Origin: Bacillota bacterium
Lineage (GTDB): Bacteria; Bacillota; Clostridia; Lachnospirales; Anaerotignaceae
DNA length: 64,000 bases
NCBI GenBank assembly: GCA_021768705.1
Contig: JAETUG010000005.1
Location: forward strand, 37,226 to 101,225
Direction of reading: 5' to 3'
In this document: piece by piece, positions 11,517 through 61,247 of the stretch
How positions within the stretch are numbered: the first letter of the stretch is position 1
How the letters are laid out: the number at the start of each line of letters is the position of its first letter
Position numbers and translations under genes: made by a program
The notes under the pieces: generated by a model
Databases searched by the model: none
What the model was told of the DNA's origin: nothing
What the model saw: only the letters and a program-made list of their open reading frames with translations

Positions 11517-11817
11517 AAAATTTCCCTCCTAAATATAAAATTTTTATTGATAAGCCCCGGATATTTTTATAATTGTGATAGATTCATTAGAATAGATAAA
11601 TGAATTCAATATCCTGAACTTATGTCATATATATTAACATTCTCTTAAGATTTCGTCAATTCGCCATTTTGACAAAAAACCTCCCGAATTATGTTGTTTT
11701 TGCACAAATATCAGAACAAATCAAACAAAATTTGACCATCTGGCAGAGTCTTTTGTGCTTATTGCACGTACAAATCCCATCAACTTTTTCATTCAGTATT
11801 TTGAATTTTAATCATAC

Positions 11818-39049: not shown

Positions 39050-39405
39050 TGGAGATGAGGGGAATTGAACCCCTGTCCGAAAACCCATCCATAAGAACTT
39101 CTCCCATCACAGTCAGTCTTTTTTCATTCCCTCGTTACAACGCCGAATGACAGGCTTTGTCCCTCAGTAGCTTCATGAATCTTTTCCTGCCGCAAAGCTT
39201 AGGCAGAAAAGTGCCTCGCAAAGTCGATGCCGGATCCTCTGGCAGCGAGAAACCAGAGACCGACAGGCGCCGTTAATTAGGCAGCCAGTGCAAAATTATT
39301 TTTGTCGTTTCTTTTTTAAAAAGGTTCCAGCTTGATGACGCGGTTCACTGGTCCGCGGATGGCTATTCCTACTTTCAAGACTCCCGTCGAAACCATTGCA
39401 TCCCC
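39050..39405 (-). ncRNA. ssrA: tmRNA
   Basis: Minus strand 5' GGGGATGCAATGGTTTCGACGGGAGTC; 3' GGTTCAATTCCCCTCATCTCCA (T-arm/acceptor); internal tag ORF ...GAC AAA AAT AAT TTT GCA CTG GCT GCC TAA (..DKNNFALAA). CCA does not appear to be encoded. Confidence 0.95.
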
Positions 39406-45973: not shown

Positions 45974-46124
45974 CCTTCTTCCTCCCTCTGATTTTCCTCA
46001 TTTTTATCATACCACCCGTCAAAAAGAAGAGCAAGGCAATTCACATTAGTATCTTCCCCATGAATCGTCTTCGTCTTCAAGCCCACTGCATCTCAGTTTC
46101 TTCTGAAAAACATTTTTACAAATA

Positions 46125-46160
46125 AAAAAAGCCTCAAGCAATGTTTTTTGCTCAAGGCTT
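46125..46160 (-). terminator. Rho-independent terminator of the phage-like operon
   Basis: Minus strand GCCTTGAGCAAAAAACATTGCTTGAGGCTTTTTTTATTT. Confidence 0.85.
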
Positions 46161-46164
46161 CCTC

Positions 46165-46734
46165 TCATTCTTTTATCTGGTAAAGGGTCAAATCCTCAAA
46201 GGGGATTTGTCCATAGCTCCACCCCAGTTCCTTCATCTTTCCGTGGGTCATCCAGCCTACTTTTCCATGGGTATTCGTATTCAAATCTACTTTCAGGGTC
46301 AAATTTGCCGGAATGATCTTCCGCAGATGCTTCTGCAAAAAATCCCTTTTCTCCTTTATGCTCAGCTCCAACACCAGATGCAGGAAATACTTTTCTCTCT
46401 CCAGTGTCGCTTTATAGTTTTCTTCCCCACAACAGCCGTCCAGCCAATCCAGCAGATGAAACCAGGTATAAGGGCTTCGGCTGTTCCAACGATACAGGAT
46501 CTCTTTTCGCAGCTCCTCCGTTTCCAGCACCTCTGCCCCCAGAAAGCCCATCATCTTCGCCAACCGCAGCAGCCCGCTTCTCTCCGCCGTCAAGATCCAT
46601 TGGTTGTTCACCACTCTATCGCGTGCTGTCGCTTCTTCCTCCAAAATTTGCCCTTCAATCTCCGCCAACTTCTGAAATTCCTGCAATTCTCTCACTGTGC
46701 TGGGCAAATACTCGCTGTATCTGTTTTCCCTCAT
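46165..46734 (-). CDS. Phage tail/baseplate protein, DUF2313 (XkdU/YmfQ-like)
   Basis: MRENRYSEYLPSTVRELQEFQKLAEIEGQILEEE...; follows a baseplate J gene. Confidence 0.75.
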   Translation of the reverse strand: MRENRYSEYLPSTVRELQEFQKLAEIEGQILEEEATARDRVVNNQWILTAERSGLLRLAKMMGFLGAEVLETEELRKEILYRWNSRSPYTWFHLLDWLDGCCGEENYKATLEREKYFLHLVLELSIKEKRDFLQKHLRKIIPANLTLKVDLNTNTHGKVGWMTHGKMKELGWSYGQIPFEDLTLYQIKE

Positions 46735-47804
46735 GCTGTCACCCCGATCTCTCCCAAAACAGGGATTTCATCCGTCCCCAGCATCGTATTCCCACCGTTG
46801 CCGTTGACCATACAATCGGAAATATCCACCACGCCATCTGCCTCCAAGGCTCTGGCTTCCAGATAGCTGATGCGCACCGTCAGGTATTCGCTCTCTGCCC
46901 AGCTTTTCCGCAGTTCTTCAAAATACGCCTCAAATCTGCTTTGGATATCCGCCAGCACCGTTTCCTGCACCGCTCCTTCCGCCAAAGAAATGCCCATGGT
47001 AATGCTGCAGGTCACCTCCTTGACTCCTTCCACCGTCACCTGGTGTCCAATCGGTGCGATCCCATATCCATCGCCCCTGCTTTCCGGGTCGATCTCCTTC
47101 TGCAGTTCTGCCAGCTCCGTTCCCGTAGGGGATCGCCAGCCTTGGTCGATGATGACCAGCTTGACTGTGCCACCGCCGTCCCAAGCGGGATATACCTTTA
47201 CCCCGCCCACATTCTGCAACGCAGTGACCTTTCTCTGATAATCGGCAATATTTCCGCCAAAAGCATCTGCGTCAAAGCTGGCAAAATAACGTTTTCGAAA
47301 TTCTGTGTCCCCTTCTTCGTCCTCGCCATCTGTCCGTAGCTCCTCCAACATGGCAACCGCCAGTCCATCCATGTTTTCCAAGGGCAGCAGATTTCCTAAG
47401 TAATCATTCCCACAGGCACCTGCTGTTTCGCATTCCAGCACATATCGCCCGTCCGCTTCTCTGGAAAGTACCACATAATAGTATTCCTCCAAAAAGAATT
47501 TCGTGCCCACTTCCATGGGGTATTCCTCGTCATCTTCATTCAGAAAACGCCCGTAAAATGTGGCCTTTACCGCAGGCTTTCTGCGAATGCCCCGTTCAGC
47601 CGCCCGTCTGGTCAGGTCGTCCCCCGTGGCCGTATCCGCAAAAGTTCTGTCCTCCAACAGGTCCAGATCAGCGTAAAAGGTGGCTGTTTCCGCCGCATTG
47701 GGTGCCAGGGCATCAAAAATCAGGCTGCCCTGTCGCTTGTCCCTTTTGTCATCGATCTGATCCAGCTTCTGTTCCATCAATTCCTCATAGCTTTTCACCA
47801 TCAA
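46731..47804 (-). CDS. Baseplate J/gp47 family protein (XkdT-like)
   Basis: SYEELMEQKLDQIDDKRDKRQGSLIFDALAPNAAETATFYADLDLLEDRTFADTATGDDLTRRAAERGI. Confidence 0.92.
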   Translation of the reverse strand: MMVKSYEELMEQKLDQIDDKRDKRQGSLIFDALAPNAAETATFYADLDLLEDRTFADTATGDDLTRRAAERGIRRKPAVKATFYGRFLNEDDEEYPMEVGTKFFLEEYYYVVLSREADGRYVLECETAGACGNDYLGNLLPLENMDGLAVAMLEELRTDGEDEEGDTEFRKRYFASFDADAFGGNIADYQRKVTALQNVGGVKVYPAWDGGGTVKLVIIDQGWRSPTGTELAELQKEIDPESRGDGYGIAPIGHQVTVEGVKEVTCSITMGISLAEGAVQETVLADIQSRFEAYFEELRKSWAESEYLTVRISYLEARALEADGVVDISDCMVNGNGGNTMLGTDEIPVLGEIGVTA

Positions 47805-48205
47805 ATATCCACCGTCCTTTCCGCCGTGATCTCACCAAAGATAGTATGCACCAGAAATCCCGCCGTCACGCTCCCCTTTTCCTGCTGAAAAGAAAAATCC
47901 GTCACCGCCGTCACTCGGTCATCCCCCAGCAATGCATCCTCGATCCGCTTTTTCAGTTCGGGGATCACATAAGTCACATTCTTCCCATACAATTCTTCCA
48001 GTTCAATCCCATAATTCCAATCATAAATGGCATATCTGTATCGTTCCGTCTGCAAAATTTTATGAATTGCCTGTTTCATGGCTTCCAGCTCATCTACTGT
48101 CCCCCGCACCTCTGCCTGTTCCTCGTTGATCTTCCAAGTCAGGCTGGGAATGATTTTTTTCTCGATGCTTGCCATGTTCAGTTCCACTTCCTGTGTCGGT
48201 GTCAT
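47801..48205 (-). CDS. DUF2634 phage baseplate-wedge-like protein (XkdS-like)
   Basis: PSLTWKINEEQAEVRGTVDELEAMKQAIHKILQTERYRYAIYDWNYGIELEELYG. Confidence 0.85.
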   Translation of the reverse strand: MTPTQEVELNMASIEKKIIPSLTWKINEEQAEVRGTVDELEAMKQAIHKILQTERYRYAIYDWNYGIELEELYGKNVTYVIPELKKRIEDALLGDDRVTAVTDFSFQQEKGSVTAGFLVHTIFGEITAERTVDI

Positions 48206-48206
48206 C

Positions 48207-48536
48207 CTATCCCTCCTTTCTTACTCTGCCCAGCACCAAATATTGCTGTCCGCCGGCTGCCCGCAGCAATGCCACAGCTTCGCCGGTCTTTAGTTTTCTG
48301 TCCCGTATCATCCGATAATAAAACCACCTGTCTCCTTCCGTATCTGTCCATGTGCGGATACGTCCGGTTTCTTCCCATTCCAGCACCGCTTCTGTCAGCA
48401 CCAGAAATGGCTCTGTCAGTTCCAGCCCCTCTTCCAGCCGGATGCAGAGAGGCTCTGCCGCCGTCACCGTCCCAATGCAGAAATCCGCACCCGTTTCCGC
48501 CGCATCCAATGCCAGCTGTTTGATGATCTCAAGCAT
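48207..48536 (-). CDS. DUF2577 phage protein (XkdR-like)
   Basis: Position in operon; IGTVTAAEPLCIRLEEGLELTEPFLVLTEAV and KLKTGEAVALLRAAGGQQYLVLGRV. Confidence 0.8.
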   Translation of the reverse strand: MLEIIKQLALDAAETGADFCIGTVTAAEPLCIRLEEGLELTEPFLVLTEAVLEWEETGRIRTWTDTEGDRWFYYRMIRDRKLKTGEAVALLRAAGGQQYLVLGRVRKEG

Positions 48537-48548
48537 TTTGCTCCCTCC

Positions 48549-49232
48549 TTATCCTCTCAGACGCCTACCGCAGCTTTCCCGCTCTTCCCAAAGCTTTTTC
48601 GTCATCTGCTGCATCAGCTTTTCTATGTCAAATGGCATCTCCGTCTGGGGCTCTTCTCTTTTTGCTGTTTCCGTTTTCGGCATTTCCTGTGCGGCTTCTG
48701 CTACAGGTGTTTCCTCCTGTTGCATTTTTTCCGTCACAGGCACGATACTTCGTCTCTTTTGTTCCATTTCCGGCTTCTCCCAAAGGAAAGCCTGCCCCAT
48801 TTTGCTTTCCTCCGCTTCTTCCTGTCTTTCTTCCCGAAAAACCGCCGCCATAAAAAGATGGGAAACGTTCCGTTTCTCCGTCCCTTCTATCTCTTCTGTT
48901 CCTTCTATTGCTCCTGTTCCTTCTCCTTCTTCCCCGGCCTCCAAAGTTTCTTTCTGTTTCTTCTCCGCTTCCGCAAAAAAGAGCTTCTTCTCCTGTTTCA
49001 AAAAGCCGCCTTCCGCTTTCTTTTCTCCCAAAGCAGTCTCTGCTTTTTCTTCCCAGAAGGTCTTTTTCTTCTCTTCTTGCTTCAAAGAAACAGCATTACC
49101 CATCTCAGCAAAAGGATCTTCCAAGCTCTTCGCACCATTCCAAAACCCAATGCCCTTCGTCTCGCCTGTCCCGATCTTCTCCTTCCAAAAATCCAACAGC
49201 CGCCCGAACAGCCCTTTCCTTTCCTTCTCCAT
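48549..49232 (-). CDS. Glu/Lys-rich phage-cluster protein of unknown function in the tape-measure slot
   Basis: ORF with ATG at 49232 after GAGGTGAGAAGG; MEKERKGLFGRLLDFWKEKIGTGETKG..., C-terminal FDIEKLMQQMTKKLWEERESCGRRLRG; no recognised domain. Confidence 0.7.
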   Translation of the reverse strand: MEKERKGLFGRLLDFWKEKIGTGETKGIGFWNGAKSLEDPFAEMGNAVSLKQEEKKKTFWEEKAETALGEKKAEGGFLKQEKKLFFAEAEKKQKETLEAGEEGEGTGAIEGTEEIEGTEKRNVSHLFMAAVFREERQEEAEESKMGQAFLWEKPEMEQKRRSIVPVTEKMQQEETPVAEAAQEMPKTETAKREEPQTEMPFDIEKLMQQMTKKLWEERESCGRRLRG

Positions 49233-49247
49233 TCCCCTTCTCACCTC

Positions 49248-49771
49248 TTATCCTCTGGCTTTCTCCGCAGCTTCGATCTCAAGCTCTATGACAGCACAGC
49301 AAAACATCCGCTCCGGTGTGGTCATTTCCACCCATTCTCTGGGGCGTATCCCGTATTTCCGGAGGGCATAGCAGGCATAATCTGCCTCGTCCACGCCCTC
49401 CTCGATCAGTTTTTTGCCTGTGCCTTCCAAGCCTTTCTCCGCTGCTGAAAGCCGTTGATGTCCTTCACCGCTTCCAAAAGCCGCATATACTCTCCGGGGT
49501 AAAGCATCTCCTTCAATGCCTTTTCTCCGCTGTCCACCCCATAGCTTTCCCAAAGTGCCTTGTCCTGCAGATCAGGCTTCACCACAGAAAGCAGGCACAA
49601 TGCCGCCCATTTGTCCTTTTTGCCTTCCGCTGCCCTGCGGTATTCCTCCTCGCTGACCGCTCTGATCTCCCAAAGTGCCTCTGCGCCGTCCTCTGCAAAG
49701 CAGGGCGAAACACTTACCCTCCTGTTCTCCGGAAATCCATTGTTCTCCTTCAAAAAGTTTTTCAAGTCCAT
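49248..49771 (-). CDS. Predicted -1 frameshift product of tail assembly chaperone (gpGT-like, about 174 aa)
   Basis: Zero frame 49771..49409, then slip at A AAA AAC (49415-49409) into LIEEGVDEADYACYALRKYGIRPREWVEMTTPERMFCCAVIELEIEAAEKARG, stop at 49248. Confidence 0.75.
49361..49415 (-). promoter_or_regulatory. Programmed -1 frameshift element
   Basis: A AAA AAC (49415-49409), 7-nt spacer TGATCGA, stem GGAGGGC/GCCCTCC (49401-49395 / 49367-49361) enclosing AGGCA/TGCCT. Confidence 0.8.
49406..49771 (-). CDS. Tail assembly chaperone, zero-frame product (XkdN/gpG-like)
   Basis: MDLKNFLKENNGFPENRRVSVSPCFAEDGAEALWEIRAVSEEEYRRAAEG...; resembles 51399..51761. Confidence 0.8.
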   Translation of the reverse strand: MDLKNFLKENNGFPENRRVSVSPCFAEDGAEALWEIRAVSEEEYRRAAEGKKDKWAALCLLSVVKPDLQDKALWESYGVDSGEKALKEMLYPGEYMRLLEAVKDINGFQQRRKAWKAQAKN

Positions 49772-49773
49772 CC

Positions 49774-50751
49774 TTATCCCTCCTCAATGCGGATATCCAA
49801 CTGCATCCGATGCTCTCCGTCGGCAAAAAAATGGCAGCAGCTTTCGATCAAGGCTCTTCCCTTCAGGCTGATCTCCGCTAATCCCGGAATTTCCAGCCAA
49901 ATGCTGTTTCCGGCGTAAAGCATCATATCCCCATTGATGTTCTCAATCGTCAGCTTTTTTACCACTCTGCATTTTTCCTGCAAAATACTTTCCGCCAGTT
50001 CCTTCAGCTGCACGCTGTTCATGGTGTAAGGCACCCGCTTGTAATACTGCAGCCTGCCCCATTTTTCCACCTTGTCCGTCTGTTCCACTTCCCATGCCTT
50101 CCGTTCCGTTTCCTTCCGTCCCGCATGATAAAGCCGCACTGCATTATAGGTATCCTGACTGATATCCGTCTTGTATGTATACTCGCTGATGCCACCGTCG
50201 CATTTCAGCACCGCTTCCGCTACCATTTCCTTTCTCTCCTTCACCGTCAACCAACCAGCCTTATCGAACAGAAAATATTCCTTTCCTGTGGCCTGCCCAC
50301 AGATCTCCAAGGCGGAAAGGATAATATCCATCAGCGTTTCCCCTTCTTCGATCCTCTGGGGAATCTTCCACCCACTGTCGGATATTTCTCCCACCTGCAA
50401 GCCATAGTCTGCGGCAATGGTCTGAATGATCTCCTTTGCTCCTTTGTTTAGGAAAACATAAGTGGCCTTGTTTCTTGCCAGATAAAACATCTGATCATAG
50501 GCCGTCACGCTGATGATCTGTTCGCTGGTTCTCTCCTTTGTCATCACAAAGCCGCTAAACCGCAAAATGGTATCTACATAAAGGGAAACCTTGTCCCCTT
50601 CCACGAAATTCACAATGCCATCTCTGACCACCTGAAATTTCAGCCTTCCGGCCTTTCCCATAACACTGGCGTACCATTCCACGCCCCCCTCTAAAATCGG
50701 TGTGGCATCATAAAGACTGCTGCCATGCTGTAATAAAAGCTTTATCGTCAT
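49774..50751 (-). CDS. Phage tail hub/baseplate protein (XkdQ/YqbQ-like)
   Basis: MTIKLLLQHGSSLYDATPILEGGVEWYASVMGKAGRLKFQVVRDGIVNFVEGDKVSLYVD; downstream of the LysM gene. Confidence 0.88.
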   Translation of the reverse strand: MTIKLLLQHGSSLYDATPILEGGVEWYASVMGKAGRLKFQVVRDGIVNFVEGDKVSLYVDTILRFSGFVMTKERTSEQIISVTAYDQMFYLARNKATYVFLNKGAKEIIQTIAADYGLQVGEISDSGWKIPQRIEEGETLMDIILSALEICGQATGKEYFLFDKAGWLTVKERKEMVAEAVLKCDGGISEYTYKTDISQDTYNAVRLYHAGRKETERKAWEVEQTDKVEKWGRLQYYKRVPYTMNSVQLKELAESILQEKCRVVKKLTIENINGDMMLYAGNSIWLEIPGLAEISLKGRALIESCCHFFADGEHRMQLDIRIEEG

Positions 50752-50769
50752 CCCCGTCTCCCCTTTCTC

Positions 50770-51417
50770 TTACAGCTTCAAAACCTGCCCGGGATAAATC
50801 CTGTTCGGATCGGCAATGCCGTTCTTCTGGGCAATCTCCCTGTATCTTGCCCCATTGCCCAGCTGCTTTTTCGCAATATTCCAAAGGCAGTCCCCCTTCT
50901 GTACCGTATAGGTTGCGGCAGGCTGCTTTGTCTGCCTCTCCTGCCCCTGCTCCACCATGGTATTGCCTTTGATACTGTAACGGATGCTTTTCGCCGCTTT
51001 CCATTCCTTCCAGTGCACCTCCACCCAGAAGTCCCCCTGTTCGCCGCCTTTCTCCGTCACCGTGTAATCCTCCAACAGCACTTCCATGTTCCCGCAAAAA
51101 AGCTGTGTCCCGTCTGCCAGCTTTCGGAATAAAATCAGCTGTACGGGCTTTGCCGCCGCCTTGTATTCCTTGAAAGAATTCAGAAAATATTCCGGCTCAT
51201 GGAACCCATCCTCCGTCTGCACAAAGCTATACTTTCTCCCTGGCAGCAGTGCCGTGAATCGGATCTCCTGCAGCCCAGGCTTTTTCGCCAGATTCATCTC
51301 CCCGAAGTTCAGGATATATGCCGTCTTGTTTCGGTTTCCTGTCTTTGTCTCCATCTCGGCAGGTGTCACAGGCAGTAAAATCTGTTTCCCATCCTGCTTC
51401 AAATACAGTCGATACAT
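50770..51417 (-). CDS. LysM-domain tail protein (XkdP-like)
   Basis: [42 protein letters not shown]-terminal [46 protein letters not shown]. Confidence 0.92.
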
Positions 51418-51761
51418 CCGCTGTCACCTCCGTTGATCTCCTCCACAGCCCTGCGCAGTCGGTCATACTCTCCCGCCAGCAGCAGTCTTGCCAGCAGTCC
51501 TTCCGCCCCGACCACGCCATAGCTGTTTTGCAGTGCCGCATCCTTCAGGTCTGGAAAGACCACACTCTCCGCCAGCACCGCCCCTTCATATCTCTTTTCA
51601 TCCTCGCCGCATCTTTTCCAGATGTCCTCGTTCTCTCTCTGGCTCATGGGGCGGATGCGCCAAAGCATCTGCCCCCCGTCTGCGGCCAGTCTTTCTGTCA
51701 GAAGGACTTCTCTTTCGCCCCTGTCCTTCCGATTTTTTTTGTAAAAACATTCCTGTCCCAA
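51399..51761 (-). CDS. Phage tail assembly chaperone (XkdN-like), first copy
   Basis: Follows the tail tube; [64 protein letters not shown] start after GGAGGGG. Confidence 0.8.
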
Positions 51762-51841
51762 AATAACCCCTCCCTTTTTTGAAGCGATTCAGAGCCTATC
51801 TCGAAAATATGATGTATTTTTTCGATGTCGGCTCTGATCTT

Positions 51842-52297
51842 TTACAGTGCGTTAAAGCTGTCCAGCAGTTCCACGCCGCCAAAGGTAAATTTCATTTCCT
51901 CATCCATAGCCGCTTCGTCCACATCCAGCTTGCCGATCAGCATTTCTTCAATGTTCACATCCTTCAGAAGCACCGTCTGTCTGCCTGCTTCCCCCGTAGG
52001 GTCTTCGTTGGTCAGCATCAGTTCAAAGTAGGTGTCCACGCCATTTTTCATGTAGTCCACCATCACCTTTCGGAAGAGACTGCTCACATAATACACCGTC
52101 ATGGTGCCGGTGCCTTCCCAGCCGCCGCTTTTCTGCTGTTTTGCTGTCAGCCCCAGAATGGGGATCGTAGTTCTGGTTTTCTTCACCTTTGCCTTGACGT
52201 TTTTCACCTGCATCAGTTCGTGTCTTTTCCCGTCAATGATGGCAAAGCAGGTGCCTAAAGCACCATTGACGGTGTCTTTTGCTCTCAAATAACCCAT
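51842..52297 (-). CDS. Phage tail tube protein (XkdM, DUF2001)
   Basis: MGYLRAKDTVNGALGTCFAIIDGKRHELMQVKNVKAKVKKTRTTIPILG; GTMTVYYVSSLFRKVMVDYMKNG. Confidence 0.93.
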   Translation of the reverse strand: MGYLRAKDTVNGALGTCFAIIDGKRHELMQVKNVKAKVKKTRTTIPILGLTAKQQKSGGWEGTGTMTVYYVSSLFRKVMVDYMKNGVDTYFELMLTNEDPTGEAGRQTVLLKDVNIEEMLIGKLDVDEAAMDEEMKFTFGGVELLDSFNAL

Positions 52298-52311
52298 CTA
52301 TCGCACCTCCT

Positions 52312-53604
52312 TTACGCAACTTCCACTTTCATATACAGCTTTTCCATGGCGTCCACAGGCTGCACGTTTTCATAAACCACCACATCCTGTTTTTCCACGC
52401 CTTTTTCCACAGTGATATCCTCCGCTGTGAAATTTTCAATGGCCTCAATTTTCATCAGCTGCTCATGGTACGCCAAAATTTCTGCTTTCAGCAGGTTTCT
52501 GCCGTTAGCATTGTTGCTCTGTTTCCCCAGATAATATTTGCTGAAGATATTCGCCACATCATTGGCGATACTGTCCAGCACCCTTACCACTCTATTGCCG
52601 GAAAAATCGCTGTTTTTCGCCGTTTCAAAGGAAGTAAAGCTATTGATATCCCGCAGCACCCGCAGCTTGCCGTCCTCTTCATAGAACAGGAACTGCCCTG
52701 CCTGAATCCCCTTGATGTATTCGCTCTTTTTCATCTTTCCATTGACTTCATATTCCCCATCGTAGACCATATTCGTCAAGCTTTCGTTCACTTCCGCCCC
52801 GGCTGTGGCACCGGCTGCCCAGTATACCAGCTCACTGGCTGTCCCTACGGAAATCACGCCTTCGTGGTCTGCTTCGGGGTAATCATGGAGAACTGTCACA
52901 AATTTTACGCCTTCTTCCTCTCTCATCCGCTTTGTGAAGTTCACAAACAGCTTCTTTGTTGTCTCGTTGCTGCCGTTGTAAGCCAGCACATTGAAATCCT
53001 CCGCTTCTGCCGCTGCCAGAAAATCCGTATATGCGCTGCCTGCTGCCTCCTCAGTGGTGCCGCCTGTCAGGTATAATCCTGCTACCGCTGTCAATACGCC
53101 TGTACCTTTAAAGGTAACATACATATTTTCCTCCAGTTCTTCGATGTTGGCTACTGTCTGGCTGTCCACCATCTCTGTCCCCAGATATGTCTCCACATCG
53201 TAATAACCTTCCTCGTCTACGTTTTCTACAATGGCAATGCAGATATCGTTGCCTCTCTCGCCGCTGTATTTTGCTGTCACCGTCAGGTTTTCTTCTGTTG
53301 CGGTCGCCTTTTTCCCGCCATTCAGCCGATACAAATGTACCTTCTTTGCGTGCAGGAAAAGCTCTCGCATATCCTTCATCTTGTCATCCAGATAATCATA
53401 GCCAAACAGGGCTCTGCTGTCTGTCCGGAAGTCTGCCGCTTCCACTGTCAGCATTCCTTCTTTGCCCCAGTCCATTTCCATACCCACACAAACCATGCCT
53501 CTTTCTCCCAAGCTGCCCATGGCTCTGGGTCTGGAAACAAAATTGATGTATGCCCCGGGCAATACCTTATTCTGCACTAAAAAAGTGCCGCCGCCTAATG
53601 CCAT
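52312..53604 (-). CDS. Phage tail sheath protein (XkdK-like)
   Basis: MALGGGTFLVQNKVLPGAYINFVSRPRAMGSLGERGMVCVGMEMDWG; KFVTVLHDYPEADHEGVISVG. Confidence 0.95.
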   Translation of the reverse strand: MALGGGTFLVQNKVLPGAYINFVSRPRAMGSLGERGMVCVGMEMDWGKEGMLTVEAADFRTDSRALFGYDYLDDKMKDMRELFLHAKKVHLYRLNGGKKATATEENLTVTAKYSGERGNDICIAIVENVDEEGYYDVETYLGTEMVDSQTVANIEELEENMYVTFKGTGVLTAVAGLYLTGGTTEEAAGSAYTDFLAAAEAEDFNVLAYNGSNETTKKLFVNFTKRMREEEGVKFVTVLHDYPEADHEGVISVGTASELVYWAAGATAGAEVNESLTNMVYDGEYEVNGKMKKSEYIKGIQAGQFLFYEEDGKLRVLRDINSFTSFETAKNSDFSGNRVVRVLDSIANDVANIFSKYYLGKQSNNANGRNLLKAEILAYHEQLMKIEAIENFTAEDITVEKGVEKQDVVVYENVQPVDAMEKLYMKVEVA

Positions 53605-53605
53605 A

Positions 53606-53770
53606 TCAATGCTCCTTTCTTTTTCCTGTCAAATATGCCTGTATTTCCTTTTCCGCTTCTTCCTTGGTGTATGCTCTGTCCTCCAGCACCGCTTTCACCA
53701 GATCAGCCCCATACCCAAAAGTCTTGCTCTTACTCAGCTGTTCCCTGCTGAATGTCGCCTTCTGTTTCAT
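53606..53770 (-). CDS. Small phage-cluster ORF (54 aa) just upstream of the sheath gene
   Basis: MKQKATFSREQLSKSKTFGYGADLVKAVLEDRAYTKEEAEKEIQAYLTGKRKEH, read on the minus strand; below the ORF-track cutoff; stop followed closely by the sheath ATG (TGATATG). Confidence 0.75.
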   Translation of the reverse strand: MKQKATFSREQLSKSKTFGYGADLVKAVLEDRAYTKEEAEKEIQAYLTGKRKEH

Positions 53771-54191
53771 AGCCCACTGCTCCCTTTCCGTTGTATTCCA
53801 GCCGTTCCATCAGGCCTGTTTCCTCCTCATCGAAAATGATGTGATATTCATATTCCGCCGTAAGCTTTATGCCGTCTGCCGTCTTTTCGTGCTTTATGCC
53901 GCTTGCCGCAAATTTTTCGTCTCTCCCGATGATGCACAGTGCTTCATATAGCCCCTCTGCCGCCGCCAGTCCTTCCGCCGCTGCTATTTTCTTCTCACCG
54001 CAAAAATACGCAATGCGAACCGTCACCCTTCTTGCCGCTCTCCTGCCCAGTAGCCGCTTCTGCTCCATCTCTTCGATTTCCACCGTAAAACAGGGACGTT
54101 TTCCTCCTTGGGGCACGCTCTGCCCGTAAACCGGCAGTCCAAATTTTTCAGAAATTGCCTGTATCACTGCTCTTCTGATTTCCTCTGTCAT
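53730..54191 (-). CDS. Phage tail completion/minor capsid-like protein
   Basis: MTEEIRRAVIQAISEKFGLPVYGQSVPQGGKRPCFTVEIEEMEQKRLLGRRAARRVTVRIAYF; position between connector and sheath. Confidence 0.75.
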   Translation of the reverse strand: MTEEIRRAVIQAISEKFGLPVYGQSVPQGGKRPCFTVEIEEMEQKRLLGRRAARRVTVRIAYFCGEKKIAAAEGLAAAEGLYEALCIIGRDEKFAASGIKHEKTADGIKLTAEYEYHIIFDEEETGLMERLEYNGKGAVGYETEGDIQQGTAE

Positions 54192-54550
54192 ACCCCATCT
54201 CTCCTTCTCAGTCCCACTGCCTTATGGGTCAAAAATACCTGACTGTCTCCCGCTGCAAAATACTGCCGTTCCTCGCCGTTTTCCTTCCGTACCCGCAGGG
54301 TGCTTCCCACAGGAATCTCCTTTCCGGCAGGGTAAAGCAGGATGACCGTCTTTTCCAGTTCCGCCAGCAGACCATTTTCTCCGCAAGGGGTGTTTTTTTC
54401 CGTCAGGCGGCAGGGGAAGCTGTCTGCCTCCCCCTTCTGGTGCATGGTCTCGCCCCAGTCCGCTGTCTCTTCCTGAAAAACTTCTACAAAGCAGGTGTCC
54501 CAGAACAGGCTTTCCACAGCTTTTTTCGCTTTCGCAAATTCCTTCTTCAT
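54188..54550 (-). CDS. Phage head closure/minor capsid-like protein
   Basis: MKKEFAKAKKAVESLFWDTCFVEVFQEETADWGETMHQKGEADSFPCRL; order in structural module. Confidence 0.65.
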   Translation of the reverse strand: MKKEFAKAKKAVESLFWDTCFVEVFQEETADWGETMHQKGEADSFPCRLTEKNTPCGENGLLAELEKTVILLYPAGKEIPVGSTLRVRKENGEERQYFAAGDSQVFLTHKAVGLRRRDGV

Positions 54551-54562
54551 GCCGCTTCCTCC

Positions 54563-54892
54563 TTACCAGTCCATCCGTCTCCAACGGTCAAGCTCCACCT
54601 TGAAGCATTCCAACAGCTTTCCCTGGTCTGCCCCATGTCCTTCCTCCTGAAAGGTGATGGAAACATCCCCTTCCTTGATGCTTTTTGCCTTCTGGGAGGG
54701 CGTCGCAGCTGCGCCGCTGTCCAGCAGCATCCCCGCCAGTGCCACACCTGTCCCCAGCAGTTCTTCGGGCAGCTCATCCATATTGCAGTAGGCTTTCATC
54801 ATCTCTTCGCTGCGTCCTGCCGCAAAGTCCATGGCGGCAAGGTCCTCTTCGGCTCTCAATTTCATGAGCTTCGCCAGAATTTTTTCCTGCAT
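54563..54892 (-). CDS. Phage head-tail connector-like protein (gp6-like)
   Basis: MQEKILAKLMKLRAEEDLAAMDFAAGRSEEMMKAYCNMDELPEELLGTGVALA; position after capsid. Confidence 0.7.
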   Translation of the reverse strand: MQEKILAKLMKLRAEEDLAAMDFAAGRSEEMMKAYCNMDELPEELLGTGVALAGMLLDSGAAATPSQKAKSIKEGDVSITFQEEGHGADQGKLLECFKVELDRWRRMDW

Positions 54893-54909
54893 CCTTCCGC
54901 CGCCTTTCC

Positions 54910-55830
54910 TTATGCTTTGCTGATGTTCACCAGAATACCGTCCATGCCGTTGTCTGTGATCCAGATATCATGGTATTTTCTGTAGTCGATTTTCCACGCA
55001 TTGGCGTTCTGGTTCGTCATAGGGTCAAAAATTCTGGTCACATCTGTTTTGGAAACAGCAACGGGCGCATTCTTCGCCATGATGATCCAGTTGATGTCTT
55101 TGGCATCCTCTGCCGCCGCAAAGCCGCCATCGGTTTCATTTTCTGTCACACCATCCATAAAGGTATATTTTGTCTGGAATCGTGCAGAAGGCACTCGGAT
55201 GATGGGGCAGCCATCAATTTCCTTTACCTTCAGTTCTGCGCTGCCCTGCTGGAATACACCGCTTTCCAGCACATTTGTACCGCCCTTTGCCAAGTCCAGC
55301 ATCCCTGCCACCTTTGCGCTCATGGCAATGACCAGTTCACAGCCGTCGCCCACGGTATCCCGAATTTCGGTCATATCGTTCATCAGGTTTGTGAAAATTG
55401 TATCCACCGCCGCAGTATATTCCTTTGTCTTTTTGGCTGTCTGCGCCAGCTCTGCGATCTTGCTGTAGCGATAAGCGTCAATTTCAGGGATCACCTTTGT
55501 ATTCTGGAATTCCCGCATCACTGCCCCTGCTGTAGCCGCAAAATTTGTTTCATCCACATCCATGGCGTCCAGCTGGAAGGTTCTGCCTCTGTCCTGGGTC
55601 AGCTTTCTTGTTTCATAAGTCACTGTTACTGCCCCCTTGGCAAAGCCGCCGTCTCTGTCATAGTCTCCCAGGCCGCTCATCTGCATTTTGGGAATTTTCA
55701 CTTCTGCGCCACCGTTATACTGCACCTGCCCTGCGTTTCCTTCCATCCAACCCGTTGTAGATTTTTCCACCAGCTGGCTGTCCAGTTCTTCCATAAAAAC
55801 AGTTGCATACTGAATACTGTTAAAACTCAT
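54910..55830 (-). CDS. Phage major capsid protein
   Basis: MSFNSIQYATVFMEELDSQLVEKSTTGWMEGNAGQVQYNGGAEVKIPKMQMSGLGDYDRDGGFAKG; C-terminal IIMAKNAPVAVSKTDVTRIFDP. Confidence 0.88.
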   Translation of the reverse strand: MSFNSIQYATVFMEELDSQLVEKSTTGWMEGNAGQVQYNGGAEVKIPKMQMSGLGDYDRDGGFAKGAVTVTYETRKLTQDRGRTFQLDAMDVDETNFAATAGAVMREFQNTKVIPEIDAYRYSKIAELAQTAKKTKEYTAAVDTIFTNLMNDMTEIRDTVGDGCELVIAMSAKVAGMLDLAKGGTNVLESGVFQQGSAELKVKEIDGCPIIRVPSARFQTKYTFMDGVTENETDGGFAAAEDAKDINWIIMAKNAPVAVSKTDVTRIFDPMTNQNANAWKIDYRKYHDIWITDNGMDGILVNISKA

Positions 55831-55842
55831 CTTTCATCCTCC

Positions 55843-56265
55843 TTATCTGCCCAGACCTCTTCTAAAAGCCTCTCTGATCTCATCCTCTTTCTTCTTCTGG
55901 CTGCTTTTTGCTGCGCCTGTGCCTTTTTTCTTTTCTGCCTTTTCATGGAACAGATAAGGCACTTCTGCCTTCACTTCCTCCATGTCCAGCCCTGTCAGGC
56001 CCTTTTTCTCGTCATAGGACACCTCGTCCATGTCGATCAGTGCCAGAATGGCCTTCACATTTTTGCCGCCGGCCTCCAGAATGGCTCTTTCCACCGCCGC
56101 AGTCTTTCTGTTTTCCGCCAGCTCACCGTCCTTTCCGTCCAGTGTCTCCTGCATTTCCTGCATCTGGCTCTCCATCTCTTCCGCCGCCTGCATCAGTTCC
56201 ACCTTTGCCGCAGGGTTCACCATGCCCTGCTTGGCAAATTTTTCTACCATCTGTGTCAGTTTCAT
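55843..56265 (-). CDS. Phage scaffold-like protein
   Basis: Coiled-coil EEMESQMQEMQETLDGKDGELAENRK; between portal and capsid. Confidence 0.6.
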   Translation of the reverse strand: MKLTQMVEKFAKQGMVNPAAKVELMQAAEEMESQMQEMQETLDGKDGELAENRKTAAVERAILEAGGKNVKAILALIDMDEVSYDEKKGLTGLDMEEVKAEVPYLFHEKAEKKKGTGAAKSSQKKKEDEIREAFRRGLGR

Positions 56266-57707
56266 TCTTCTTTCCCCCTTCTTTCTCTTTCCAGCTGTTC
56301 CATCTCGCTGTTCACATCCTCCACGAAAGGATGTTTCCCCAGCAGCGTCTTTTCGCTGACAATGCCCTTGCTTTCTGTAATGATCTGCATGGTTTCCAGA
56401 TCATCGGTAATGCCGTTGGTATTCAGCGTGATTTGAATTTTTCTCCAGTCCCAGTCCGTACCGTTTTCCCGGTTCCAGTCCTCCACCGCAAAGCAGAAAA
56501 ATTCCTTCACCGCCTTTTTGATTTCCGGCACAATGCCGTTGATCTTCAGGTAAAACATAGCATACTGAAATTTCAGTGCCACCCCGCTGGCGGCTTTGCC
56601 CCAGTCATCACTGTCGGTATCCACCCCCATACCAAAGTGGAAAATATCCTTCCGCAGCATCTGCATCCAGTCCAGTCTGCCTTCCACGGGCAGCTGTACC
56701 TGCTTCGCCTCCACACTGCCGCTGCTGTCGCTGATCTGCACTGCCTTGTTCACCTGCAGCTTTCGTGCCACGGCGCTGGCTGTCTCTCCGCCATAGCCTT
56801 GGATCACCCAATACAGGTCTACCAGATCCAACAAAGTATTGGTCCCTTCGCTGCTCACATAATCATACGCATCGATGAGTCCCTTCACCAGCTGCAGGTC
56901 GGTCATTTCCCTGTCATTGTTCCGCAGGGGAATAAAGGGCACTCTGCCCCAGCCGTGTTCTACCGTTTCCCTTTCCTCGCCGTCCAACAGCTCCGTTACC
57001 GTCCAATGACCGCATTTGTTCTCTTGCAAAAATTCCCCGTCACTGTTCTCCGTATAAAAGGTCACGTTCTCCGCAGTCCACCATTCCACACGCCGCTTGG
57101 TCTTTTCCCTGCCGCCGTCCAGTACCTTGATGTCATAATATCGAATCACTTCCCTGATATCCTGCTGATACACCTCATCGTAAACCACGATGATCTCCTC
57201 CGCAGGCACAATGCAGTATCGAAAGACCCCTTCTTCGTCATAATAAACATGCAGATATTCCACGCCTTTGTTTGCCGCCCCGATGATCCATTTCTGCAGT
57301 ATACTGTTGAATCCCTCGTCAGCAAAATCCGTCAGCATCGTCTCAAATTCCTTGCTTTTCTGCCCTCTTACGCTGAGGGTAGGCTCTCTCCCTACCAAAT
57401 AAGCGGTCTTTTGTGCCACCAACGCATGGTGGAATGGGTTCACACAATGGTGATTGCTTCGGTTGGGGTTAAAAAACATCTGCATGCTTTCCTCCCCGTC
57501 TCTCCCCGTTTCGGAAACAGGGCTTCTGCGAAAATCCTTCTGCAAAATATCATGCTTCCCCTGATAATATCGCTCGCCCTCTTCCATCCTCTTTTTCTTG
57601 TCACTGTTTTTGTCCTCCTGAATGATCTCCTTCAGGATATGGCTGTCGTTAAGGCTTTTCCCCGCCGCCAGCCTTGCTTTCAGCAGCTCCATTTCTGTGA
57701 TAAACAA
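56262..57707 (-). CDS. Phage portal protein (SPP1 type)
   Basis: KKRMEEGERYYQGKHDILQKDFRR; NHHCVNPFHHALVAQKTAYLVGREPTLSV; VPFIPLRNNDREMTDLQLVKGLIDAYDYVSS. Confidence 0.93.
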   Translation of the reverse strand: MFITEMELLKARLAAGKSLNDSHILKEIIQEDKNSDKKKRMEEGERYYQGKHDILQKDFRRSPVSETGRDGEESMQMFFNPNRSNHHCVNPFHHALVAQKTAYLVGREPTLSVRGQKSKEFETMLTDFADEGFNSILQKWIIGAANKGVEYLHVYYDEEGVFRYCIVPAEEIIVVYDEVYQQDIREVIRYYDIKVLDGGREKTKRRVEWWTAENVTFYTENSDGEFLQENKCGHWTVTELLDGEERETVEHGWGRVPFIPLRNNDREMTDLQLVKGLIDAYDYVSSEGTNTLLDLVDLYWVIQGYGGETASAVARKLQVNKAVQISDSSGSVEAKQVQLPVEGRLDWMQMLRKDIFHFGMGVDTDSDDWGKAASGVALKFQYAMFYLKINGIVPEIKKAVKEFFCFAVEDWNRENGTDWDWRKIQITLNTNGITDDLETMQIITESKGIVSEKTLLGKHPFVEDVNSEMEQLERERRGKEE

Positions 57708-57724
57708 TTCCCCTTCTCCTTTCT

Positions 57725-58963
57725 TTATCTGATCCGTACGTGTCTCATGTCATCCTCTCGGCTATACCGCACCGCATCGATCGCATGATTTTCTCTGTCC
57801 GGAAATGCAGCCTTCCAACCGCCCTTGCCGTCCCCTTCGTATGCATATCCGTAAAATTCCTTTGCCGTTTCCGGGCATCGTTTGGGGTCGATGATGATCT
57901 CCTCCAAGTCCTGCAGCCACTTGATGCCATAATACACGCTGTCAGGGCCCTTCTTCGCCCCCACAGCAGCCACACCATATTCCCGCATTTCCGCAATGGA
58001 TTTCGGCTCTGCGCTGTCACAAACGACTGCCCTGTGGTTCGGGTTCTCCTTCCTGATCTCCTCTGCCAGTCGTCGGTTGCTCATGCCCTGCGCCCGCAGT
58101 TCAAAGAAGATATACAGCAGCCTTCTGGTCTTGTCGTAGTGGTTCACCGTGTAATGCAGTGGGTCTACGGCATACCCCCAGTCCAGTCCACGGCTGATTC
58201 TGTCAAAAGCAGCAATTTCCTCGTCGGAAATTTCCCGTAACGTCAGATTGCGAAAAACTTCGCCGCCGCCCCCCGTCACTTCCCCTAAATATTCATGTCG
58301 GTAAGTCTCAGGGTGACGCTTCCGTATGTATTCCGCCTCTGCCAGAAATTGGCTCCCCAGCCATTCCTCCGGCATATCCAGATAAGTGCTGTGATGGACC
58401 AGCCTGTCTTCCCGTTCCTCTGCCATTTCCTGGTTCACCCAGTTTCTGGCATGCTTAGGCGGGTTAAAGCTGTAAAAGATACGAAATTCTTCGCCCCCTC
58501 GCATCAGGCTTTGGTTCAGGTTCCGTAATTCCTGCATCCCACCAAATTCGTCCACTTCTTCATACCAGATAAATTTGGCATAGCCCCGCTGAAATTTAAT
58601 GGATTTCAGTTTTCTCGGATCGTCGCATCCCCGAAACAAAACCTTTTGCCCTGTGCTTTTCCGTACCAGCTCCATGGGGCTCACCTTTCTCTCCCATTCA
58701 TCCTCCACACCCAAAGCATGAATGGCCCATGTCATCTGCTCAAACACACTGTCCCGCAGATTCGCCGCCACCTTTCGCAGCACCACCGCATTGGCATCCT
58801 CGTCCTCCACCAGCCCCAGTATGATTTCAATGGACAGAAACGAAGATTTTCCGCTGCCTCTCCCGCCTTTCAGCCAGTAGTGGGTATGTCCCCCTTCTCG
58901 GATATCTCTGTGCAGTCCGTAAAATCCCTTCCCGATGCACTGGCTCAGTCTCGTCATCTTCAT
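57725..58963 (-). CDS. Phage terminase large subunit (PBSX family)
   Basis: LKGGRGSGKSSFLSIEIILGLVED; FIWYEEVDEFGGMQELRNLNQSLMRGGEEFRIFYSFNPPKHARNWVN; LDWGYAVDP. Confidence 0.96.
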   Translation of the reverse strand: MKMTRLSQCIGKGFYGLHRDIREGGHTHYWLKGGRGSGKSSFLSIEIILGLVEDEDANAVVLRKVAANLRDSVFEQMTWAIHALGVEDEWERKVSPMELVRKSTGQKVLFRGCDDPRKLKSIKFQRGYAKFIWYEEVDEFGGMQELRNLNQSLMRGGEEFRIFYSFNPPKHARNWVNQEMAEEREDRLVHHSTYLDMPEEWLGSQFLAEAEYIRKRHPETYRHEYLGEVTGGGGEVFRNLTLREISDEEIAAFDRISRGLDWGYAVDPLHYTVNHYDKTRRLLYIFFELRAQGMSNRRLAEEIRKENPNHRAVVCDSAEPKSIAEMREYGVAAVGAKKGPDSVYYGIKWLQDLEEIIIDPKRCPETAKEFYGYAYEGDGKGGWKAAFPDRENHAIDAVRYSREDDMRHVRIR

Positions 58964-59382
58964 GGCAGATCATCCACGATGAAGATGGGACTTTTTTCTT
59001 CTGCTTTTTTCTCCTTTTCAAACAAGCTCTCTCGCTTGCCCAAAAGCTCCGCCGCTTTCATCCGCATTTTCGGGTCGGCATCCTCTCGCATCATTCCCGT
59101 CAAAAAACACAGGATCTCTTCCTTCTCCGCCACTGCTGTCTCTTCTTCCCCTTTCGGCATGATTTTTTCTTCCTGCACTGCTGTCTGCTCCTTCTGCCTT
59201 TGTATCTCCTCCTGGATTTTCTCCATCCGCAGCATGTCGCCCACGGTCCTGCTGATGTTTCGATACCCCAACAGCTTCGCCGCATCCAAAGGTTTCATCC
59301 CTGCAGCGCAGAGCCTGCAAAATTCCTTCTGCCGTTCCGTCAGTTTTCTCTCTGCCACATTTGCATCGCCTCCTTTCTCCAC
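58960..59382 (-). CDS. Phage terminase small subunit
   Basis: LTERQKEFCRLCAAGMKPLDAAKLLGYRNISRTVGDMLRMEKIQEEIQR; overlaps terL start. Confidence 0.88.
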   Translation of the reverse strand: MEKGGDANVAERKLTERQKEFCRLCAAGMKPLDAAKLLGYRNISRTVGDMLRMEKIQEEIQRQKEQTAVQEEKIMPKGEEETAVAEKEEILCFLTGMMREDADPKMRMKAAELLGKRESLFEKEKKAEEKSPIFIVDDLP

Positions 59383-59411
59383 TGCTCCCTCAATATATCC
59401 CCTTCCAACTC

Positions 59412-59870
59412 TTACATAGTCTCATCCTTCTCCATCTGCAGCAGCTTTTCCAATATTCTGTCCTGCATCCGAAACAACGTAGCTCGGCTCATGTGCAGCT
59501 TCATCCCAATAAAATCAAAGCCGCACCCTTTCTCGTATCGCATCTGGATGTATTCCTGTTCTTCCTCCGTCAACTCCTGCAGCAGCCCGTCCATCTGCTT
59601 TTTCTGCTCCATGATTTCCAAAATCTCTCCCTGCAGCTTCTCCATATCTCCTTCATACTGCCTGTCAATGTTCTCCATCATCTGAGCCACCGCCGCAGAA
59701 TCATTCTCCGCCATCAATTTCTTCTGCTCTTCCCGCAGCTTGATGATTCGTTTCATCTTCTCCTGTCTCCGTCCGCATTTCTCTGCTGCGCATCCCCAGT
59801 CCAGCAGCCGTATTTTCATCCGCCCCTTGTCGCTGTCCATTCTTCCTTTCACATATGCCTTCCATCCCAA
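59412..59870 (-). CDS. Sigma-70 region 4-like phage transcription regulator
   Basis: C-terminal LTEEEQEYIQMRYEKGCGFDFIGMKLHMSRATLFRMQDRILEKL; likely TTG start after AGGAGGGG. Confidence 0.75.
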   Translation of the reverse strand: MGWKAYVKGRMDSDKGRMKIRLLDWGCAAEKCGRRQEKMKRIIKLREEQKKLMAENDSAAVAQMMENIDRQYEGDMEKLQGEILEIMEQKKQMDGLLQELTEEEQEYIQMRYEKGCGFDFIGMKLHMSRATLFRMQDRILEKLLQMEKDETM

Positions 59871-59924
59871 TTTCTTTTCCCCTCCTATTTATCAAACATA
59901 TATTCTTATTTTTAGTTCATTTTA

Positions 59925-59936
59925 GAACGTTTGTTC
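59925..59936. promoter_or_regulatory. LexA/SOS (Cheo-type) box
   Basis: GAACGTTTGTTC = GAAC-N4-GTTC within AGAAC-N4-GTTCT, at the predicted transcription start of the phage-like operon. Confidence 0.75.
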
Positions 59937-59943
59937 TTATTAT

Positions 59944-59972
59944 TATCTATCATTTCCCTTTCCCCTTGTCAA
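59944..59972 (-). promoter_or_regulatory. Sigma-A promoter of the phage-like operon
   Basis: Minus strand TTGACA (59972-59967), 17-nt spacer, TAGATA (59949-59944). Confidence 0.7.
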
Positions 59973-60021
59973 TAGTAAATGAGATCAATGAGACTATCAG
60001 AAACCATCCCCCTTTTTTCCA

Positions 60022-60062
60022 AAAGAAAAAGAACCCCAAGTCCTTTCAACTTGAGGTTCTCT
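60022..60062 (-). terminator. Rho-independent terminator of the MPN-LysM gene
   Basis: Minus strand AGAACCTCAAGTTGAAAGGACTTGGGGTTCTTTTTCTTTT. Confidence 0.8.
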
Positions 60063-60065
60063 CCC

Positions 60066-61247
60066 TTATCCTTCGGGAATCCACAGTGCCTGTCCTTCAT
60101 AGATCATATCTGCATTCTTTAATCCATTTGCCTCCATGATCCTTGTGATTCCGCTGTTATCTCCATAAAATTTTCTGCTGATATATCCTAAACTATCTCC
60201 GCTTTCCACGACATATTTTTTATTTGTCACTTTTTCTGTTGTTGCAGGCTCCTCTGCATGGGCATTTTTTGCCTCCTGTACGGCAAAAACGCTTTGCACC
60301 TTCACCCCTTCGAAGTCCTCCGCCAAGGTCTGATAGGAGGTCTGCATCGCCAATAATTCCGTTTCCACTGTCCGCAGCCTGTCCAGGCTCTGCATCATCG
60401 CCAGCCCCATGCAGACGCAGACCGCACAAAGCACACAGCTTACTGTTGCCAGCAGTCGGTCATGCTCCTTCTTTGCCTGCTTCACTTCCTTCTCCCGCTT
60501 CTGCAGTACCCGCCGAATCTCCTTCGCCGCATCCATCCGCTCTTCTGCCGAGGGCTTTCTTCTTTGCCGCTCTCTGGGTGCTGCCTCTTCTGCTGCAAAA
60601 GCCGCTGCTTCCGTCTGGGGGCTTGTCCCTTCCTGAGCTTCCCCTCTGGGGCGGATCATGCTGTTCTCCAGCATGTATTCCTGCATCTCCCTGTTCCTGT
60701 CATAGTAGACAAAATATCCTTTGGCCTGTCGCAGCCCTGTTCCGTCCTCATTGTAGATATAAAATGTATCCAGCTTGTCCATGGTATCCACCACAAACAA
60801 CACCTGCCATTTTTCCTTGAAATATTCCTTGTGGAAAACTTCGTCCCGTGCCATCAAAAATGCCCCAAAGCTGGGCTGGCAATGGACCCAACCCACAATA
60901 TTCATCCCTTTAAAATAGGTCTGCATTTGCCCACCGATGTATTCCCATGTCTCTTCGCTGAAGCATTCTACGCCGTTCTGCTGCACTGTTTCTTTTCCCT
61001 GAATAGCCCCGGAGATCACCAGCACATCCTGTCCTTCGATCTCATAATGCTTCCCGATCAGTGCCGCCAGCTTTTCCTTTCCGCCGCCGCTTCTGCCGTA
61101 TTGATACAGATATGTATAGACATAATCCTCCACAAAGATCTTCACATGGTTCTCAATGCTCCCCATCTGCTTCGTTCGCGCAGGCATGGAAAACTTCTTT
61201 CCCGCCGTGCCATATAAATTGCTGTCGCCGTCAAAATAATATTGCAT
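60066..61247 (-). CDS. MPN/JAMM-like domain (degenerate) - TM - LysM protein
   Basis: N-terminal MNIVGWVHCQPSFGAFLMARDEVFHKEYFKEKWQVLFVVDTMDKLDTFYIYN resembles JAB1/MPN; TM LLATVSCVLCAVCVCMGLAMM; C-terminal YVVESGDSLGYISRKFYGDNSGITRIMEANGLKNADMIYEGQALWIP = LysM. ATG at 61247 after AAAGGAGGAAG. Confidence 0.75.
   Translation of the reverse strand: MQYYFDGDSNLYGTAGKKFSMPARTKQMGSIENHVKIFVEDYVYTYLYQYGRSGGGKEKLAALIGKHYEIEGQDVLVISGAIQGKETVQQNGVECFSEETWEYIGGQMQTYFKGMNIVGWVHCQPSFGAFLMARDEVFHKEYFKEKWQVLFVVDTMDKLDTFYIYNEDGTGLRQAKGYFVYYDRNREMQEYMLENSMIRPRGEAQEGTSPQTEAAAFAAEEAAPRERQRRKPSAEERMDAAKEIRRVLQKREKEVKQAKKEHDRLLATVSCVLCAVCVCMGLAMMQSLDRLRTVETELLAMQTSYQTLAEDFEGVKVQSVFAVQEAKNAHAEEPATTEKVTNKKYVVESGDSLGYISRKFYGDNSGITRIMEANGLKNADMIYEGQALWIPEG

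Follow-up and report, generated by a model that had tools for sequence, protein, structure and literature searches.

What has become of a compact set of phage head and tail genes that sits in a bacterial chromosome with no visible means of leaving it? The question is raised by a block of 22 reading frames, all on the minus strand, which runs from 59870 down to 46165 (13.7 kb; Table 1) in a 64,000-nt stretch of contig JAETUG010000005.1 (GCA_021768705.1; the whole stretch is called the window below). The host is represented by a metagenome-assembled genome (MAG) of the Anaerotignaceae (G000, 85% complete), the window's nearest named relatives being Anaerotignum and other Anaerotignaceae. The frames encode a head and a contractile tail in the order found in PBSX of Bacillus subtilis (xtmA to xkdU), and are spaced by −41 to +80 bp with the one exception of a 148-bp overlap, which corresponds to a frameshift pair. 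An earlier note on this DNA had taken the block for a chromosomally fixed particle rather than a recently decayed prophage. Comparison with other genomes (one per species) leads to the strongly supported conclusion that it is a domesticated, prophage-derived operon, inherited vertically in Anaerotignaceae.

The block is fixed at one chromosomal site

In 16 genomes of five genera the block, hereafter the type A element, occupies one and the same site, flanked by a host LysM gene and by secG-rnr (site order: GTP pyrophosphokinase, cls and host LysM genes on one side, secG and rnr on the other); it was seen on one contig in 14 of these and was pieced together from contig fragments in 2. Named carriers are Anaerotignum lactatifermentans, Altered Schaedler Flora strain ASF356 and Chakrabartyella piscis. 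For a further genus, comprising ASF356 and its relatives, the upstream neighbour is kept and rnr lies elsewhere, ~106 kb off in the complete ASF356 genome. Seven genomes have an empty site, the LysM gene adjoining secG with nothing between them. Since these are nested within the carrier clade of the host rnr tree, in two places, the empty sites are best read as clean losses of the element. The outgroups do not resolve the family root, so that the insertion is traced back as far as the carrier clade. The upstream LysM gene, considered as a possible part of the element, was rejected because it is present at the empty sites. G004 (C20, L111), a genome that is 99% complete and belongs to the window's genus, is also without the element; its rnr neighbourhood is rearranged and no secG was found upstream.

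A tree of seven element genes (TerL, portal, sheath, tube, gpJ, hub and sheath initiator) had 13 of 15 splits in common with the host rnr tree (18 genomes), against a mean of 0.33 and a maximum of 3 when labels were shuffled (2000 times). The ratio of non-synonymous to synonymous substitution rates (dN/dS) was 0.04–0.1 for most structural genes (window versus its closest relative, L064), dS was similar to that of the host genes on either side, and head genes are conserved as much as tail genes. When 296 genomes of the order were searched with the capsid profile, all matches better than 1e-140 fell in Anaerotignaceae. Isolated capsid relatives (35–58% identity) were also seen on Desulfotomaculum, Gracilibacter, Ruminococcus and Fibrobacter MAG contigs (L085, L086, L088 and L090), with few or no further matching genes beside them.

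The claim of fixation is thus borne out by the orthologous position, by a tree congruent with that of the host, by purifying selection and by the cleanly empty sites nested among carriers. Sporadic presence with frameshifted copies, which the earlier note had named as grounds for refutation, was seen only in part: some lineages are indeed without the element, but they lost it cleanly and cluster in the phylogeny, and frameshifted copies were noticed among relatives in one error-rich assembly only (G062; loci L070 and L094). Its many frameshifts are attributed to assembly error because the host rnr is broken as well.

The absence of mobility and lysis genes reported earlier also stood: neither integrase nor replication, lysis or fibre genes are found within the block (46165–59870), and the two flanks have no direct repeat of at least 10 bp in common (2.4 expected by shuffling). 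The terminators previously placed on each side were recovered as computed hairpins followed by T runs, one at the end of the operon (Table 1) and the other at 60005–60070 (−26.7 kcal/mol, z −4.6). The count of about 20 mostly overlapping genes becomes 22 intact frames; all the genes listed earlier are present, and profile searches gave family names to nearly all of the frames.

A candidate miniature tape measure behind a frameshifting chaperone

Two features had escaped the earlier gene list: the −1 frameshift extension of the second of two tail assembly chaperones, and an empty tape measure slot. PBSX-type operons have a long tape measure gene between the chaperone and LysM genes; in the window's operon there is nothing in this place. 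Chaperone 2 ends GCA-AAA-AAC-TGA, and its A_AAA_AAC heptamer is kept in nearly all homologues; it is absent from the chaperone 1 copy, which has lost the slippery site. Directly behind the frameshifting chaperone, type A copies have a gene whose product belongs to no known family (p231; 231 amino acids). Its homologues are 210–266 amino acids long in most copies and 314–430 in a few, and are alike in little except a C-terminal motif of the type D(I/V)D..M..(L/M)TKKLWE. Prophages of the same family have tape measures of 654–734 amino acids in the usual slot, one being only 321 amino acids long.

It is probable that p231 is a shrunken tape measure. Its position behind the frameshifting chaperone, its predicted helical fold and the lack of any other tape measure candidate in the operon argue for this, as does its counterpart in the type B elements described below (207–308 amino acids), which matches prophage tape measure C-termini with an hhalign probability of 95.6%. 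The other possibility, compatible with any reading of the whole element, is that p231 is an unrelated disordered protein of tail assembly or regulation and that the tail is built without a tape measure. Such a protein would fit the great variability of p231 (210–430 amino acids, conserved mainly at the C-terminus), the lower probability (51.5%) with which type A C-termini match those of prophage tape measures and the poor AlphaFold model (confidence 54); in view of the points above we regard it as unlikely. p231 is an outlier among the block genes with a dN/dS of 0.36 (window versus L064). Although p231 and its homologues have very little sequence identity, their aromatic residues often recur at intervals of ~17–18 residues.

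Proposed SOS control of the operon

A putative promoter precedes the operon, with the motif GAACAAACGTTC just downstream of its −10 element (Table 1); its spacer is 19 nt in the window and 17 in L035 and L043. Among 17 type A copies, boxes of this type in the equivalent place have a core of 8/8 in six (window included) and 7/8 in nine, and none was found in L093 and L037. Since the motif is also present at the recA and lexA promoters in 8/8 genomes checked, G000 included (one lexA case is weak), GAACAAACGTTC is most likely a host LexA box. In nearly all type A copies the operon opens with a gene for a sigma-like late regulator, which we take to be comparable to Xpf of PBSX.

The earlier note had recognised no repressor. 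This holds for the window but not for its relatives, most of which encode at the locus a divergent 212-amino-acid protein with a weak helix-turn-helix (HTH) match and a strong peptidase S24 domain. Every full-length copy found belongs to an element-bearing genome, and genomes with an empty site lack the gene. The promoter-bearing intergenic regions also contain one to three TGTGAAnnnnnTTnACA-like sites; these putative operators often overlap the −35 element. For the most part the S24 gene and the TGTGAAnnnnnTTnACA sites occur together, and the window, L032 and L033, which all belong to the window's genus, have neither; in L045 a site is present and no repressor gene was detected. Genomes of the window's genus encode S24 proteins at other places; these were rejected as relocated repressors, their HTH parts looking unrelated. 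From these patterns we infer dual SOS control by LexA and the S24 repressor, of which only the LexA part is left in the lineage of the window.

Related elements in the same family

Three other Anaerotignaceae genera carry what we call type B elements (L047, L048 and L054; L049 and L050), which are monophyletic (100/100). They are without integrase, have a short tape measure between the hub and DUF2577 genes and a small HTH gene upstream, and in two genera (L047, L048 and L054) their site adjoins deoD. A further compact element, L051 (G023), has a fibre-like gene, an SPP1-type holin (TIGR01592) and an amidase-like gene, and is possibly an intermediate with a lysis module. L051 lends support to the idea of an ancestral lysis module that was later lost from type A or relocated. 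A 164-amino-acid putative tape measure and a gpr-like host gene upstream were also noted for L051 (13381–13875 and 17833–19328).

What the particle might do

We take gene transfer agent (GTA) in the viriform sense (PMC9662315). The sequence has three of the marks of one: a caudovirus-derived structural cluster, vertical transmission, and no genes of its own for integrating, excising or replicating. A functional temperate prophage would be expected to have an integrase, att sites and modules for replication and lysis, none of which is present at the locus. The element probably packages DNA, since the Walker A/B and nuclease motifs of TerL were located and are intact (its dN/dS is 0.04) and dN/dS is low in all head genes. 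On the sequence evidence we consider it reasonably probable that type A is an SOS-induced, host-DNA-packaging, short-tailed contractile GTA-like particle, inherited vertically, rather than a virus. DNA damage would lead to cleavage of LexA, and in most relatives the element's own S24 repressor would also have to fall; the sigma-like factor and the structural operon would then be expressed. With no replicating phage genome to package, TerS and TerL would load the heads with DNA of the host, headful by headful, and the heads would join a very short contractile tail, its length set by the ~230-amino-acid tape measure at roughly 35 nm (the usual scaling is 0.15 nm per residue). Particles, once released, would carry host DNA to kin, and the genes for lysis and recipient binding would have to sit elsewhere or be host functions.

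Several observations weigh against a GTA-like particle. There are no lysis genes at the locus, and queries with Phage_holin_4_1, Holin_SPP1 and amidase in G000 gave nothing convincing within this 85% complete MAG. No tail fibre was found in the block, which speaks against delivery. The mini tape measures are low in hydrophobic content (21–37%, against 45–47% in prophage ones), and there may thus be no DNA injection across a membrane. Finally, TerS is predicted to have a DNA-binding fold (helices 16–73, pLDDT 74–89 in the AlphaFold model, with a fold weakly similar to those of small terminases and HTH regulators), unlike the GTAs of Rhodobacter capsulatus (RcGTA) and Faecalibacterium (FpGTA); the lack of such a domain is, however, a trait of those two and not a definition of all GTAs.

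The main rival to the GTA reading, although somewhat unlikely, is a PBSX-like particle that has a head but serves to kill: it would package host DNA without delivering it and be kept because it kills related strains by contraction on their cell surface. PBSX itself packages 13.4 kb of random host DNA and yet acts like a tailocin (PMC12946183). A contractile sheath and the low hydrophobic content of the mini tape measures would fit such a role, the gene order is that of PBSX minus xkdO, and TerL belongs to the NCBIfam 'PBSX family'. Killing specificity normally resides in a receptor-binding fibre, but the locus has no gene for one; moreover, the predicted tail is unusually short, and the head genes are as conserved as the tail genes, which a pure killer would not need. 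The missing lysis and fibre genes could alternatively mean that the element is a fixed, satellite-like module that obtains both from co-resident prophages, and related full prophages do occur in several hosts (L042, L044 and L056). We think this very unlikely: the element itself encodes neither an integrase nor a replication module, its history is vertical and not horizontal, and sheath and portal each occur once in G000, so that no second related prophage is seen at the search sensitivity used. A functionless prophage remnant is the least credible reading of all. It would account for the genes absent from the block (lysis, fibre, integrase and replication) and for the lineages without the element, but not for a dN/dS of 0.04–0.1 in most genes, frames intact across genera, or the conserved slippery site and regulatory boxes.

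A more far-reaching form of the GTA reading is possible and is put forward tentatively: type A may represent a contractile-tailed, family-wide, SOS-induced Gram-positive GTA with a tail of few rings and an origin separate from those of PBSX, FpGTA and RcGTA, in which the repressor of the prophage persisted at first and control later passed entirely to host LexA in one genus. If true, this would provide a graded record of a phage becoming a host organelle, from tape measures of 654–734 amino acids in prophages through the one of 321 to ~210–310 in most fixed elements.

Comparison with known systems

Type A is like PBSX in its order from small terminase to DUF2313, its XkdN/P/Q-type proteins and its PBSX-family TerL, and probably functions like PBSX up to packaging. 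Both also have a sigma-like positive factor, and an SOS link like that of PBSX is predicted for type A from its LexA box and from the S24 repressor of most relatives. It differs in having no long tape measure (xkdO), fibre or holin/endolysin at the locus, in its duplicated chaperone, one copy of which has moved behind the hub, in the LexA box at the operon promoter, and in being a separate lineage inherited across a bacterial family. We filed it as a GTA-like variant, and not as PBSX, because several PBSX parts are missing. R-type tailocins and diffocin-like elements likewise have contractile tail genes fixed in the chromosome, but they are not known to carry head genes, whereas in type A portal, capsid, scaffold, TerS and TerL are all conserved and under selection.

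FpGTA (PMC12946183) resembles type A in belonging to a Clostridia gut commensal, in its compact terminase-portal-scaffold-capsid operon without replication or mobility genes, and in being near-universal in its host group; for both, parts may sit in a second operon. It is podovirus-like and its TerS has no obvious DNA-binding domain (PMC12946183), whereas type A, as far as its genes tell, has a contractile tail and an HTH TerS. With RcGTA (PMC7296036, PMC7947584), type A has in common inheritance in step with the host and, as predicted for type A, a very short tape measure and tail; RcGTA is of a different lineage, with a non-contractile tail and a TerS without specific DNA-binding domain (PMC7947584).

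Only PBSX and FpGTA are named as Gram-positive GTA-like systems in a January 2026 paper (PMC12946183). No paper linking Anaerotignum with gene transfer agents was found in the library searched, and the Anaerotignum-prophage papers look unrelated by title. Type A looks like an unreported Gram-positive GTA-like particle: through much of a family of gut commensals, it would be a packaging particle that is passed down vertically and switched on by DNA damage, and its carriers are likely to be easily accessible. With empty-site relatives as natural controls, the purpose of GTAs and the shrinkage of tails during domestication become directly testable.

Gene content and further observations

Table 1. 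Features of the type A operon and its promoter region in the window
Feature	Coordinates	Strand	Basis
Putative operon promoter	TTGACA 59967–59972, GATAAT 59942–59947	−	inferred from sequence; 19-nt spacer
LexA (SOS) box, most likely; GAACAAACGTTC	59925–59936	−	just downstream of −10; 8/8 core, p 0.003 by shuffling
Sigma70-region-4-like late regulator	59412–59870	−	PF04545 1e-4; phrog_36 3e-12
Small terminase TerS, N-terminal HTH kept	58960–59382	−	phrog_51; AlphaFold helices 16–73
Large terminase TerL	57725–58963	−	PF04466 2e-41; TIGR01547 'PBSX family' above cut-off
Portal, SPP1 gp6-like	56262–57707	−	PF05133 2e-109
Scaffold	55843–56265	−	PF06810; phrog_24130 full length 5e-57
Major capsid protein	54910–55830	−	phrog_422 7e-111
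Head-tail adaptor 1	54563–54892	−	phrog_132
Head-tail adaptor 2	54188–54550	−	phrog_615
Tail terminator	53730–54191	−	PF20765
54-amino-acid conserved protein	53606–53770	−	phrog_966
Contractile tail sheath	52312–53604	−	PF04984/PF17482; phrog_279 4e-131
Tail tube, XkdM-like (DUF2001)	51842–52297	−	PF09393 4e-48
Tail assembly chaperone paralogue 1 (XkdN-type), without slippery site	51399–51761	−	PF08890
LysM baseplate/tail protein, XkdP-like	50770–51417	−	phrog_380 4e-68
Baseplate hub, YqbQ-like	49774–50751	−	PF24032 1e-88
Tail assembly chaperone 2 (XkdN-type), A_AAA_AAC slippery site at stop codon	49406–49771	−	PF08890
−1 frameshift extension of chaperone 2	49248–49553	−	phrog_33439 6e-29
p231, candidate miniature tape measure	48549–49244	−	position, C-terminal motif, helical low-confidence model
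DUF2577 baseplate protein	48207–48536	−	PF10844
Sheath initiator, DUF2634/gp25-like	47801–48205	−	PF10934
Baseplate wedge gpJ (Baseplate_J)	46731–47804	−	PF04865 9e-50
DUF2313/Mu gp48-like, last gene	46165–46734	−	PF10076 1e-13; phrog_521
Operon terminator hairpin	46110–46170	−	−23.3 kcal/mol, z −5.6; T run after

In a search of a phage collection the best identities were 34% for the portal and 52% for the capsid, and a PDB sequence search with the capsid profile gave no match. The carbon cost of the element's proteins does not differ from that of prophage proteins of the same genome. In L098 of G072 (portal turned to the + strand) the tail tube gene is duplicated in tandem at 10938–11736; the second copy has 55% identity to the tail tube of the window, and an additional ~1.7 kb separates the tail adaptor and terminator genes of this genome. 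The tmRNA (transfer-messenger RNA) gene is a common prophage target; in the window it lies at 39050–39405 (tag DKNNFALAA), a few kb past rnr, so that the element is near it, not inside it.

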